Of a stretch of DNA of 18,982 nucleotides, positions 1 to 10,098 are shown piece by piece. Position 1 is the stretch's first letter; each line of letters opens with the position of its first letter. Source of the stretch: Candidatus Altimarinota bacterium (GTDB taxonomy: Bacteria > Patescibacteriota > Gracilibacteria > GCA-2401425 > JAJOLG01). Location: assembly GCA_021129445.1 (NCBI GenBank), contig JAJOLG010000008.1, positions 1 through 18,982 on the forward strand, given 5' to 3'. The notes below the pieces were generated by a model. It was not told the origin of the DNA, ran no database searches, and saw nothing but the letters and a program-made list of their open reading frames with translations. Position numbers and translations under genes: made by a program.

Positions 1-830
1 AATAATACCATAAATGACATAATTTTATTTTTAATTTCAGGTGATTTATTCATTGAATCCATAGCCCCTTTTATAAGTAAACCTTCACCTATTCAAGCAC
101 CTAACCCAGCAAGTCAAATTGCAAACCCAGCACCTAATGCAGCAGCAGTAGCTCCTTCAAATGATAATATTTGAAATGCAACTATTAATGCATAGATTGC
201 AGCAGATTCAATTAATGCTACTCAAAGAATTGAAACAGTTAAGAAAAATGAAATCATTTTAGGATTTTGTCCCATTATTTCTAATGATTTTTCAGACATA
301 TATCATCTTCAAATTGCAACCCCTAATCATGCTAATCAGATAGCAGAACCAGCAGCAACAGCAAAAATTGGATTTAAGTCAGCACCTTCACCAATAATTT
401 TAAATGCAATTATTAAACCATATATAGCAGTAACTTCTACTAAGGCAACAAATAATACCATAAATGTCATTATTTTACCTTTAATAGCAGGATTTCTATC
501 CATTGCTCATAACGCACCAGCAATAAGTTGACCTTCTCAGATTCAAGCACCCATACCAGTTAATCAAATTGCTAAACCAGCACCAATTGAAGCATATAAT
601 GGTAAACTTTCAGCAGCAAATAATTGAAAAGCAACTACTAATCAATATATAACAGCCGATTCTAATAATGCTACACCAAGAATTGTAACTGTTAAGTAAA
701 AAGTAATCATAGCTGGAGTTTTTCCCATAACTTCCATTGCTTTTTTAGCAAGTATTCATTGTCCAATTGCAACTCAAACTCAAGCTAATCAAACAGCTAA
801 ACCAGGTCATACATAATTTAAAAAATCCAT
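1..830 (-). CDS. atpE: F-type ATP synthase subunit c, tandem multi-hairpin fusion (3' end beyond window)
   Basis: Membrane rotor (c ring) subunit of F0, which carries ions past subunit a. The 276 visible residues contain three complete c-type hairpins and most of a fourth, joined in one frame. The glycine-rich first helices repeat at about residues 8-30, 82-105, 159-180 and 233-255. The carboxylate-bearing second helices are centred on E57, E132 and E208; a fourth is expected just past the window edge. The period is 75-76 residues. A normal bacterial c subunit is about 70-90 residues with one hairpin. Hairpins 1 and 3 resemble each other (LLESAVIY, LIESAAIY), as do 2 and 4 (GAGIGEG in both), so an A-B unit seems to have been duplicated. 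At the position of Ilyobacter Q32 the residues are Q24, E100, R175 and E250. ATG at 830 follows atpB by 40 bases. Many helix glycines are TGA. Identification is firm; total hairpin number is unknown. Confidence 0.93.
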
Positions 831-870: not shown

Positions 871-1701
871 TTAGTGTACTTTTGCTACTTTAATAAAGAT
901 AGCAATAAGTAATGGAAATACTAGTGCTTGTATAACAGCAACTAATAATTCTTGTAGATATAGTATTATAGGTCCTATAACAGGAAAATCTATACTAAAT
1001 AAGTTTTGGGTTAATCCAATAATTGCTCAAAAAAGCATTGCTAAAAGAATTCAACCAGAAGTCATATTTCAAAATAACCTAAATGATAATGAAATAACTT
1101 TTGCTGCATGTCATACTATTTCTAATACTCACAAAAATAATGAAATAGCTATATCAAAAAATTTAACAATAATATAAACAAACCAGTCAACAGCAAATGG
1201 AAGATTTCATCTTTCATAAGGAATCAAATCCTTTCATTTAATTGGAACATATTCATGAATAGCTTTCCAAAAACCTAATGCTTTGAACTGTTCAATTATA
1301 ACTATAACAACTCAAACAACTGCCATAGCTATATTAAAATTAATATCAGCTGTAGGTATTTTTATAAATTCTTCCATATGATGTCCAAAAATAGGAATAA
1401 GGAATTCTAAAAATACTCATAAAAGATTTGATAATAATATTATAAAAAACATAATAACAATATACATCTTTATCCATTTTTTTTCATCTTTTCATAGAAT
1501 ATCTTCAAAAAATTCATAAGATTTTTCAAAAAATTGTTCAAACATAACGAAAAATCCAGATTTTGGAAATTTTTTATATAAAAAGTATAAAATTCACAAA
1601 ATAAAAAGTTCAGCAACTAATCATGTAAAAGCAGGCTGCCAAGCAAATCCTGATTTTAAAAATGGAATAATTCATTCGATAAAAGCAATAAGTTCTTGCA
1701 T
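871..1701 (-). CDS. atpB: F-type ATP synthase subunit a
   Basis: Stator membrane subunit of F0 that forms the ion half-channels next to the c ring. The 276-residue protein has five to six hydrophobic segments. The conserved fourth-helix motif SFRLFGNM includes the essential stator arginine R208 (codon AGG). The last helix carries VIQALVFPLL with Q257, matching the family pattern around E. coli Q252. Length is typical. ATG at 1701 is the first start downstream of a good promoter (TTGACA-16-TATTTT, 1763 to 1736), giving a short leader with no clear Shine-Dalgarno. atpE follows on the same strand, so this is the usual atpB-atpE order. The gene order beyond the left edge is not visible. Confidence 0.95.
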
Positions 1702-1735
1702 GTCTTTTAAAGTTTTATTTTTTAAACGCCAATCG

Positions 1736-1763
1736 AAAATAGAAAAAAAATTTTCTATGTCAA
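1736..1763 (-). promoter_or_regulatory. sigma70-like promoter of atpB-atpE
   Basis: On minus, TTGACA (1763-1758), a 16-base spacer and TATTTT (1741-1736) lie 35 bases before the atpB start. The -35 box is embedded in one arm of the inverted repeat at 1754-1764. This is a motif match only. Confidence 0.5.
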
Positions 1764-1865
1764 ACAAAAAAAAATTTTATTTTTTTAAAAACTCATTTAT
1801 TTTTTTAAAAATTTAATTATAATGTTAAGATTTATTTTTTTAGTTAAAAAAAAATTTGACATAGA
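1754..1865. repeat. 11-bp inverted repeat spanning the divergent promoter region
   Basis: TCTATGTCAAA at 1754-1764 is the exact reverse complement of TTTGACATAGA at 1855-1865. Each arm contains the outward-facing TTGACA -35 box of one of two divergent promoters. The 90 bases between the arms are almost pure A/T. It could be two copies of the same promoter element or a pair of operator half-sites. Confidence 0.6.
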
Positions 1866-6603: not shown

Positions 6604-9600
6604 TTATTTCAATAATTCTAATTCTGCATCGGTTAAATCACCTGTATCTTTATTTTTTCAATCATTATTTTCATCAAACTCCAAAGCATTTTTATCGTCA
6701 ACTACTGTTGAAGCGGTTCATGATATTGGTTTTTCAACAGGCTCAACCTCTTTTTTAATCTCTTCACATTTTCAATATTGTTTAGAAAAAATTGTAAAAT
6801 CTGTAAAATCCACTTTATTATCAAAATTGTAGTCAAAGAATTCTGACGATGGAACTCAATTTTTGTAATCCTTTGCAAACATTGTAAAATCTCTAAAATC
6901 AATACAATTATCTTGAACGGAATTTGAAAGCTCAAAAATTGATTTTTTCTCAGCTGATGCATGCATTTCTTCAATATCATTAAATCAAGTAAATTCTTTT
7001 ATAATTCAATAATATTGTCATTTTGAATATTTTAAATCTTCTTTTAAATCTCAAAATCTTACTCATGCAGCAGATTGAATATTTTTGATTAAAATTGCAT
7101 ATTTTTTATTTCTAACTTGCTTTTCTGTTGAAATATAAATTGTTTTATTATCATCACCAGAAAATTCTTTTGCTAAAACTTTTAAAGTTTTTGATGGGTT
7201 ATTTTTTTCAAAAATCTTGAAATTTTTTCATTTTTGTTCAAGAGAACTTGGCATAATTCATTGGTCAAAAGTTAAAGCAATTTTTGTATCTGATAAATTT
7301 TCAATATTTATCAAATGTGGAGCGATTTTTTCTTTATCAAATCCATAAAATATTTTATGATTATCAGTAAAAGAATCCTCTTTTAATCAAAGTTTTTCAG
7401 TATTTGCAATAACTGTATATTTTTTTCATGGCTCTTGATCTTTTGTTTCAAGTGTTACAATTGTTGCATTTGTATTTATTTTTAGATCTTTTATTACAAG
7501 CCTGTCTTTATCATTATTTTCATTTGCAATAATAAATGCATTTTTGTCAATTGATTTTCTATCAAGAGGATTTGTGAAAACCAATTGAACTTCATTTGAT
7601 GATAATGAAATTGCCATTTGTAATTTTGGACTTCAAAGTCATTCTTCTGGAAGTGTTCAATCAGAAACTGTAATGTATGAATACCCTTCTACTGATCTTC
7701 ATCAAGATTGAATTGCAATTGTTTTAATTCTATATCTTTCAGTTGATGGTTTTGTAGATTCTGGAATTACAATATTATCAAGTCTAAACCATTGTCATTT
7801 TGATCATTCTTTGACAGAATGTTTCATACAAACAATTCTATCATTTTGATTTTTACAATTTTCTGATGAAGAATTTTCTTCTCATCAAATATATTTTGCA
7901 ATATTTCAAAAATTTAAAATTACATCTTCAATTTCATGTCATTGATTTTCTACATAAACATTCATAGAAAATGTAGTTTTTCCGTCATTTATTGCTAAAT
8001 TTGGCTCATTATATCATTTTTCAGAATTTATTTTTATTGTATCTTTTGAATTTTCTAATTCTTTTGATGATGGATCCAAAACTTTAATTTCAATTGTTTT
8101 TGCAGTTTCATTTCATTGTTTATCGTAAGCAACAAGTTGAAATTCATGCCATCAAACTTTAACAGTCGATGGAATTCTAATTCATTTTAAATTATAAATT
8201 GCAGATTTTACATTTGATGATTCAACATCATCTCACATTTTTTCTAACTTTACAACATCTCCTCAAATTCAAGTTAAATCCGCCCTAACTTCAACAATAT
8301 CATTTGCTCAATCTTCATCTTTTACAATTGTTGAAATATTAAAAATTGTTGTGTAATCATTTGGAATTTTCCGCCTTGAAAGTCTGACATAATCCATATC
8401 ATAATCATCATCAACACTATCAACCTTTCTTACAAATTGAGGTGCAGATCATGCATTATGTGAATAATTATAAGTTAAAGTTGCTTCCTCACCACTTTTA
8501 TCAAGTGCTGTAAAAGTAATATTATACTCTCATTTTTTTACATCAGATGGAATCTCAATTGGAGATTGAAGCCTAAAAATTTCTGTTTTCTTCTCTGTTC
8601 TTCAAGAAAAAATTGAATTGTTCACTGTCTGCTCTCATCAAGTTGAATCTGAAAAAACTTGTCAGCTATCTAGAACTCCAAAATTTTGTTGATTATCAGT
8701 TCAAACATTTGAATTTTCTGTAACATTTGAAAGCGCAAAAAGTTCTTTATATCAAAGTCATAAACTTGTTAAATCTACATTTACCGATGAAATATCGTTT
8801 ATTCAATCATCATCAGACACCTTTACAAAAACATCAAGCTGTTTTGTTGTTTTATTAAATACAACACTTGTATTTGATAGAGTTGGAGTCGCAGAAATCA
8901 ATAAATCATTTGTCACATTTACAACAATATTTCAAGTTGCAGTATTTCATTCTGTATCCTCTGCTGTAATTTCCACAGCATGCTCTCAAATTGGAACTGT
9001 TTGGAAAATTTTTATTCATTTTAAAACATACCAAACTTTATTATCAACAATTTGAGCTTTTTCCATTTGTGCAACTGGACTTCATCATAAAACTGATAAA
9101 TTTGCAGTCACTTTGTTTATCAAATTTACTCAATTTGGAGAATCAACTTGCACCCATAAATCAATTGGCATTTTATTATTATTCAAAACTTTTTTTGGAA
9201 TAGTGTAAGATTTATCAGATAAAATCGTAATTTCTGAATTTAAATTTGTTCATAAATCTTCATTATGGTTTGCCAAATAAATCGCATTTTCTAATTTTAA
9301 AATATTTCATCAAGACGAAACAAAAGCATCATAAAGTCATTCCTTTTTTCAAGTAAAATCAAAAGTAATTTTATTTTCCGCATCCAAAGAAAATTTTTCT
9401 CATGCAATAGAACCTGAAAAATTTTCTATATTATTTCAGAAAAATTTTATTTCACATCAAGCAGTTGTTTCACAATAATTTTTTGAAATTGATAAAATTT
9501 TTGAATCATCAGATGGAGAAATATCCGCATCTCAAATTTTTAAATATCATTTTTTTCAAATTCCTCAAAACATTTTCATTGAATCATCAATAAATTGAAT

Positions 9601-10098
9601 TTTTCAAACTTTAATATCAATTTGAGAATTTGCAGATAATTTTTTTATAAAAGTTTCAATTTTCACAAAAGAAGTATTTTTTGGAATATTTACTGGATCA
9701 GAAGACATTAAAGTAATTGTTGATTTTCAAAAATCTTGATCAACTTTTATATCTTGAAAATCAAAATATCAAAATAAACCTTCGATATCCTGCTTTATCA
9801 TTATCTCATCTGGATTATAAGAAAGTTCAAAACTCAACATTTGAACATTATTCAAATCTTTTCAAGCAAAAAACCTTACAGAACCTCACTGCGCTGTAAT
9901 ACCTGTATAACTTCACATAAAAACATCATATCATTCTCAATCCACCAATTGATTTTCAAAAACATTCAAAAGTGATGCCTTAAAAAAACTTGATTGATTC
10001 GCAAAAAATATTGAAAACAATATTGTAAATCATGTAATTATTGAAAAAAGACTGACTAATCTTTTCTTTTCCTTTAAAAATTGTTTTAAATTAAACAT
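6604..10098 (-). CDS. large secreted or surface-anchored multidomain protein (cohesin-like N-terminus, Ig-like modules, dockerin-like C-terminus)
   Basis: 1164 residues, open throughout in code 25. An N-terminal hydrophobic segment (about 14-33) after KEKKR is a signal peptide or membrane anchor. Residues about 55-205 look cohesin-like (FELSYNPDEI, then alternating strands). Residues about 300-680 carry three similar modules with a D-rich turn (SDDDGINDISS, KDEDGANDIVE, DSPNGVNLINK), followed by a related region to about 815. Residues 824-920 and 927-1018 look like two SbsA/Big_5-type Ig-like domains (VQLVFTNPLD, IALTFDQGIM). The C-terminus has dockerin-type loops, the better one at 1089-1100 (D1089, N1091, D1093, D1097, D1100), and a final acidic EF-hand-like tail (1142-1159). 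Cysteines are few and could pair (C209/C215, C748/C756, C1065/C1111). No LPXTG motif is seen. Probably adhesive or structural on the cell exterior; domain names are by eye. Confidence 0.85.

Follow-up and report, generated by a model that had tools for sequence, protein, structure and literature searches.

It has long been asked what determines the size of an ATP synthase c-ring and hence how many ions are spent per ATP. The rotor ring of an F-type enzyme is normally built from about a dozen separate small c proteins. At one end of the 18,982-nucleotide contig JAJOLG010000008.1 (GenBank assembly GCA_021129445.1) of a Candidatus Altimarinota bacterium, a single atpE gene encodes several c-type hairpins in one reading frame, which raises the question of what ring such a chain could form and how its ion sites would be arranged. 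The whole of this contig, referred to as the window or C5, was analysed together with the genomes of relatives. The gene is likely to encode a genuine F-type c subunit of four joined hairpins, three chains of which would close a c12 ring with each ion site built across hairpins.

A fused c subunit in the window

The window genome is a 673-kb draft in 77 contigs, in which TGA is read as glycine (genetic code 25) and frames are broken under translation table 11. A single open frame of 276 codons runs on the minus strand from an ATG at position 830 to the contig edge at base 3, with 17 in-frame TGA codons for glycine. The Pfam family PF00137 is found four times in it (159 bits, E = 3e-47, cut-off 24), and a hairpin profile spaces the units about 75 residues apart in the order A-B-A-B. 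The initial annotation, made from the sequence alone, had described four c-type hairpins in this frame. That description holds, except that the contig end cuts hairpin 4 after its first transmembrane helix and the start of its second; the 3' third is absent from the window, and the ion-site glutamate of hairpin 4 lies on another contig, C55. The proposed pairing of hairpins 1 with 3 and 2 with 4 was borne out by identities of 58% and 65%, against 35–41% for the cross pairs, and identities and tree agree on the suggested duplication of an A-B unit. Compared with a standard atpE (a single hairpin, about 70–90 residues), the gene is a variant with four hairpins in about 297 amino acids (aa). No second c gene was detected in the window genome at E ≤ 0.001.

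The rest of the gene was located through the operon. A profile search of the genome placed ATP-synt_ab at one location, the 4333-base contig C55, whose minus strand starts with FVALIEVVAIYGLIIAFKLMG and a stop codon, corresponding to most of the second transmembrane helix of a B-type hairpin. After this end of atpE come atpF, a short open reading frame (ORF) at the atpH position, atpA, atpG and the start of atpD. Across the contig break the operon thus reads atpB-atpE / atpF-(atpH)-atpA-atpG-atpD, in line with the a-c-b-delta-alpha-gamma-beta order of F-type operons, and its recognisable subunits are all F-type. The two contigs overlap by at most 3 nucleotides (ATT), and the frame joined in this way gives FMVL-FVALIEVV, matching relatives, and a chain of about 297 aa with four hairpins. 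C55 opens with the cap signature IEVVAIY. In the tree, hairpin 4 of the window falls in a group of 20 rows (support 99/87) that contains the C-terminal caps from chains of every length, and hairpin 3 joins the penultimate class; because the two have these placements, no hairpin unit is likely to be missing. The leftward extension advised in the initial annotation therefore led to the end of hairpin 4, the stop and then atpF, and its "at least four" hairpins become, judging from these sequences, exactly four, the unread junction probably having a gap of zero length. Contig C46 was rejected as a continuation of the gene, as its weak DNA match is a chance one and it carries no hairpins. The ORF at the atpH position (L032, 3368-3715, minus) is short, with 115 aa and no Pfam match, and no homologue of it was detected in the operons of family f12.

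Complete four-hairpin orthologues align end to end with the window gene in three other assemblies, namely JAKVBB010000052.1 (G198, 80% identity), JAQVGG010000030.1 (G201, 84%) and CP042461.1 (G204, 81%), the last being the closed chromosome of Ca. Gracilibacteria bacterium 28_42_T64. Conservation of a chain of four or more hairpins, named at the outset as supporting evidence, was thus found, with up to 12 hairpins in other relatives. A single-hairpin orthologue, named as contrary evidence, was not found at the operon position of the window atpE in near relatives; where the family does have single-hairpin genes, these are either an H+-type paralogue, distinct and equipped with a and b genes of its own, or come from more remote lineages. 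Taxonomically, the window genome (G000) is assigned to a different family and order from those of G198, G201 and G204, despite this close similarity of its atpE; the gene may have been transferred horizontally, or the placement of the reduced 673-kb genome may be unsure.

Three other accounts of the gene itself were weighed. An internally repetitive gene in which a contig of a 77-contig draft ends might be suspected of being an assembly artefact, a normal atpE with one or two hairpins that was turned into a four-hairpin frame by tandem duplication, chimera formation or collapse. However, DNA identity between the A-B units of the window is only 71% and no exact repeat exceeds 14 nucleotides, which makes a collapse of this copy unlikely, and the same architecture recurs at 80–84% identity in three other assemblies, one of them closed, with the reading frame and the hairpin-specific caps conserved. 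The diverged units and the four-hairpin genes of relatives rule this account out for practical purposes, and we give it next to no credence. An uptake of a V/A-type K proteolipid by an F-type operon is scarcely more credible. Fused proteolipids are common in V/A-type enzymes, and the V-type K NCBIfam model PRK06271 scores 100 bits, but this is far below its cut-off of 211, whereas the F-type model PRK13471 passes its own (130.5 against 124). Further, every hairpin has its glutamate, the recognisable neighbours are F-type and among solved chains the F-type c1 of Acetobacterium woodii is nearest; by model scores and neighbours, V/A-type K identity was ruled out. A gene longer than four hairpins (4+2n), with one or more A-B units lost in the C5/C55 gap, is improbable. 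While relatives have 6, 10 and 12 hairpins and the break falls within hairpin 4, the window already supplies a hairpin of the penultimate class (hairpin 3) and one of the C-terminal cap class (hairpin 4), C55 begins with the cap signature, and the 3-nucleotide overlap joins the contigs in frame, exactly as in relatives.

A series of chain lengths in code-25 relatives

Hairpins were counted per frame in 353 genomes of the class. Strong c matches were confined to code-25 lineages (families f1, f12 and f15), and chains occur in F-type operons of code-25 Gracilibacteria and Absconditabacteria. Among 59 distinct multi-hairpin proteins, 38 have two hairpins, five have four (including the cut window copy), eight have six, one has ten and six have twelve, and one is cut off at eight, so that complete genes hold 2, 4, 6 or 12 hairpins, with one of 10. 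In a sample of 379 genomes across the phylum, no other match was found at E ≤ 1e-22.

The twelve-hairpin genes (about 900 aa) belong to G179, G194, G200, G205, G206 and G208, and both of the proteins tested contain twelve Pfam domains. All listed c matches fall within the single 12-hairpin gene in G194, G200, G205, G206 and G208. As it is the sole c gene detected in these five genomes, one polypeptide probably forms the whole ring there. The copy number is safe from short-read collapse in G179, G200, G205 and G208, where the longest exact repeat spans only 20–65 nucleotides, but not in G194 (599 nucleotides) or G206 (192 nucleotides). Chain length shifts fast, with 2, 6 and 12 hairpins in genus g60 and 6+6, 10 and 12 in genus g113.

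Ion sites and covariation between hairpins

The ion of Na+ rings is coordinated by two adjacent c subunits, one contributing positions 32 and 65 and the other positions 63 and 66 (PMC3692424). All 233 hairpins surveyed carry Glu at position 65, in the second transmembrane helix; in the window this holds for hairpins 1–3, the Glu of hairpin 4 being on C55. Further, the residue at position 32 of a hairpin (n) varies together with that at position 66 of the hairpin before it (n-1). Glu32 stands opposite Ser/Thr66 in 148/148 cases within chains and 19/19 from last to first hairpin (167/167 together), while Val/Ala66 stands opposite Gln/Arg32 in 16/16 and 22/22 cases, respectively (38/38 together). 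With shared ancestry ignored, Fisher p is 7e-16 for internal pairs and 7e-6 for the last-to-first closure; pairing with hairpin n+1 instead violates the rule eight times. Because the covariation extends from the last to the first hairpin, these sequences support a last hairpin placed opposite a first one, which chains arranged head to tail in a ring would require. In the 12-hairpin chains of G179, G206 and G208, the sole Val66 is in hairpin 12 and the sole Gln32 in hairpin 1.

Along the window chain, the sites read Q/V, E/S, R/V and E/S, that is, two full two-carboxylate sites, one partial site and one with arginine. The full Na+ ligand set (Q/E32, E65, S/T66, Y70) is accordingly present at two of the four sites and not at every site, compared with 11 of 12 in three 12-hairpin relatives. 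The E32/E65/S66 sites are predicted to be of the two-carboxylate Na+ type, as in Fusobacterium nucleatum. The R32/V66 site at hairpins 2/3 is probably locked or impaired, as Arg175 would be expected to pair with Glu208 and block ion binding.

The proposed ring and its weighing

In the proposed rotor, neighbours in the chain would be neighbours in the ring, and the last hairpin would dock on the first hairpin of the next chain or, in 12-hairpin chains, on its own first hairpin. Three four-hairpin chains would give a closed c12 ring turning against subunit a as usual. Each ion site would be shared by two hairpins, one giving positions 32 and 65 and the hairpin before it position 66, so that the site at the chain end would be Q32/E65/V66 and the R32/V66 site at hairpins 2/3 would be locked or impaired. 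The size of twelve is taken because 2, 4, 6 and 12 all divide 12 and because sole-gene 12-hairpin chains would have to make a ring alone. A c12 ring would pass four ions per ATP if all sites work and fewer if the Arg sites are dead. The fixed stoichiometry initially expected of a fused chain would follow from this arrangement. A single chain holding all hairpins of the ring is likely for the 12-hairpin relatives with a sole c gene; it is not likely for the window, which has only four hairpins, and no ring as small as that is known.

Structure models were compared with solved chains. The four-hairpin model is confident, with a predicted local distance difference test score (pLDDT) of 86 and a predicted template modelling score (pTM) of 0.87, and its best solved match is 4bem_J, the A. 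woodii double hairpin (template modelling score 0.72 by target length, 2.6 Å). The 12-hairpin model (pLDDT 74) is too poor for a verdict on ring closure and gave no significant Foldseek match. In a VIA-align comparison of this model, about two hairpins spanning residues 1 to 897 match known double hairpins (Z 13.6, 3.0 Å), which would fit a first and a last hairpin lying next to each other.

Several points weigh against a c12 ring of three such chains. Its size rests on divisibility and on the 12-hairpin relatives, and all the evidence comes from genomes. The C5/C55 junction is unread at base level, and an inserted A-B unit keeps a small probability. The Fisher p-values ignore kinship, and roughly three independent changes were counted by eye (Q/V at the chain end, R/V at the penultimate position and Q/A in genus g113). 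The AlphaFold model of a 12-hairpin chain reaches a mean pLDDT of 74 and a pTM of 0.81 (five rows), and its sequential neighbours fit the known double hairpin poorly (root-mean-square deviation 9.9 Å), so the hairpin order in that model may be wrong. Finally, G193 has ten hairpins on a 971-kb contig, with a longest exact repeat of 102 nucleotides, and either ring size varies or its copy number is wrong. This ten-hairpin gene, like the range of c8 to c17 among known c-rings of other organisms, would suit a one-protein chain whose ring is not c12 but is made of two chains (c8) or four (c16), or varies in size by lineage. Such a ring appears unlikely, although it retains some weight: chain lengths of 2, 4, 6 and 12 within one clade have 12 as a common multiple, and, provided that each ring consists of a single chain, the sole-gene 12-hairpin genomes set at least their own rings at 12.

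How the chains grew

When each hairpin was matched to its nearest hairpin in other genomes, parity was kept in 160/164 cases, and first hairpins matched first (24/24) and last matched last (23/23). In the tree, N-terminal hairpins form one group (one change, in all 200 bootstrap trees), and the interior repeats of a given gene frequently cluster. This retention of parity and end position, with the co-clustering of interior repeats, indicates that the caps are old, the expansion taking place in the A-B units that lie between them. The six-hairpin gene of G207 looks like an end-to-end fusion of a two- and a four-hairpin chain, judging from its hairpin 2, which is sister to the C-terminal caps, and its hairpin 3, which groups with the N-terminal caps. 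As a tentative scenario, for which we claim rather less than even confidence, stepwise end-to-end fusion (2, 4, 6, 12) of short c subunits may have led to a single-chain c12 ring and freed individual ion sites to diverge, some of them Arg-locked, so that fewer ions than hairpins would pass per turn and the gene would set the gear ratio.

Neighbouring and additional genes

The positions of the gene, its hairpins and related features are collected in Table 1. Elsewhere in the window, positions 6604-10098 (minus) encode a 1164-aa protein with a hydrophobic N-terminus and only weak Ig-like, HYR and DUF4625 matches.

Table 1. Coordinates of atpE, its hairpins and related features in the window and in relatives.
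Feature	Sequence	Position	Strand	Remark
atpE, fused F-type c subunit	window	3..830	minus	276 codons present; last 21 codons on contig C55 (near end of L032, minus)
Hairpin 1, A type, N-terminal cap	window	603..830	minus	Gln24 = position 32, Glu57 = position 65, Ser58 = position 66
Hairpin 2, B type	window	375..602	minus	Glu99 = position 32, Glu132 = position 65, Val133 = position 66
Hairpin 3, A type, penultimate class	window	150..374	minus	Arg175 = position 32, Glu208 = position 65, Ser209 = position 66
Hairpin 4, B type, C-terminal cap class, first two thirds	window	3..149	minus	Glu249 = position 32; Glu65/Val66 on C55
Codon AGA of Arg175, ion-site position 32 of hairpin 3	window	306..308	minus	
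atpB, subunit a of same Fo, PF00119	window	871..1767	minus	directly upstream of atpE
Second long c gene	L069	10873-11766		
Second long c gene	L073	7782-9134		
Second long c gene	L077	7045-8397		
Second long c gene	L078	6928-9636		
Two-Fo loci	L187, L189, L191, L192, L195, L196, L199			named L108, L115, L162

In several code-25 Gracilibacteria, one operon holds two Fo gene sets ahead of a single F1, in the order atpB-atpE(2 hairpins)-atpF, then atpB-atpE(1 hairpin)-atpF-atpH-atpA-atpG. The 2-hairpin c of these operons is Na+-type (mostly Q/E32, S/T66) and the 1-hairpin c is H+-type (V/I32, A66), and two exchangeable Fo motors, for Na+ and for H+, possibly serve one F1. In some genomes, a further long c gene of 4, 6 or 12 hairpins lies upstream of atpB, with no subunit a of its own nearby. 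In L069 it is preceded by a Beta_propel (PF09826) protein and a protein without a Pfam match, and similar-looking ORFs precede it in L073 and L078. The two-hairpin c of L086, L168, L169 and L186 (G022, G126, G127 and G149) runs B-A rather than A-B; a ring would tolerate this circular permutation. In L188, L189 and L190, Phe replaces the ion-site Tyr70 in both hairpins of a two-hairpin c.

Relation to known systems

One of the closest known systems is c1 of the Na+ F-ATP synthase of A. woodii, also a fused c of a bacterial F-type enzyme, whose structure (4bem chain J) is the best solved sequence match of the window atpE (E 4e-14). The c1 subunit has two hairpins and forms a ring mixed with nine single-hairpin subunits; the window atpE, in contrast, has four hairpins with Glu in every one and is the sole c gene found. 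Covalently joined hairpins are also seen in the V-type K ring of Enterococcus hirae (2bl2). There, hairpin 1 supplies ligands to the site of hairpin 2. Unlike here, only one of the two hairpins of E. hirae K has Glu, and the operon is V-type. The E32/E65/S66/Y70 chemistry of B-type sites and most interior long-chain sites resembles that of the F. nucleatum c11 ring (3zk1, PMC3692424), which consists of single-hairpin subunits, whereas the sites in the window differ along the chain.

Longer chains have precedents. According to PMC2359735 (citing Lolkema and Boekema 2003), the A-type K of Methanopyrus kandleri joins 13 hairpins in 1021 aa, each with an ion carboxylate, and was predicted to be the whole rotor. 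In that respect the chains described here are alike, but they belong to bacterial F-type operons instead of an archaeal A-type enzyme, have even numbers from A-B pairs instead of an odd 13, and form a graded 2-to-12 series with only four hairpins in the window genome. An engineered single-chain c10 ring of Bacillus PS3 (Mitome 2004; used in PMC8809890) is active in ATP synthesis, which shows that a whole ring in one polypeptide is workable in an F-type enzyme. It is man-made with Gly-Ser-Ala-Gly linkers, whereas the chains here are natural and their hairpins diverged. A two-hairpin F-type c, a 13-hairpin archaeal A-type chain and an engineered c10 are thus already known. No earlier report of a natural F-type series up to twelve hairpins, and no description of a fused F-type c in Gracilibacteria or Patescibacteria, was found in the open-access literature searched, and a report elsewhere is possible; the passages on ATP synthase in papers on BD1-5 gracilibacterium and Vampirococcus do not mention a fused c.

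Implications

In the F-type rotor series of one clade, ring size would be partly encoded in the gene, up to a whole ring per chain, and ring size and the ion-to-ATP ratio may therefore be readable from the gene. This opens stoichiometry, ring closure and site heterogeneity to direct testing by sequence and by expression. The series would be the F-type counterpart of the duplications behind V-type proteolipids, with the intermediates still present. For these bacteria, published work has made a case for protons or taken them for granted (PMC8080830, PMC6851277). The present sites bear on how ATP synthase is used by bacteria of the candidate phyla radiation without a respiratory chain, as most interior sites of the long chains look Na+-type.
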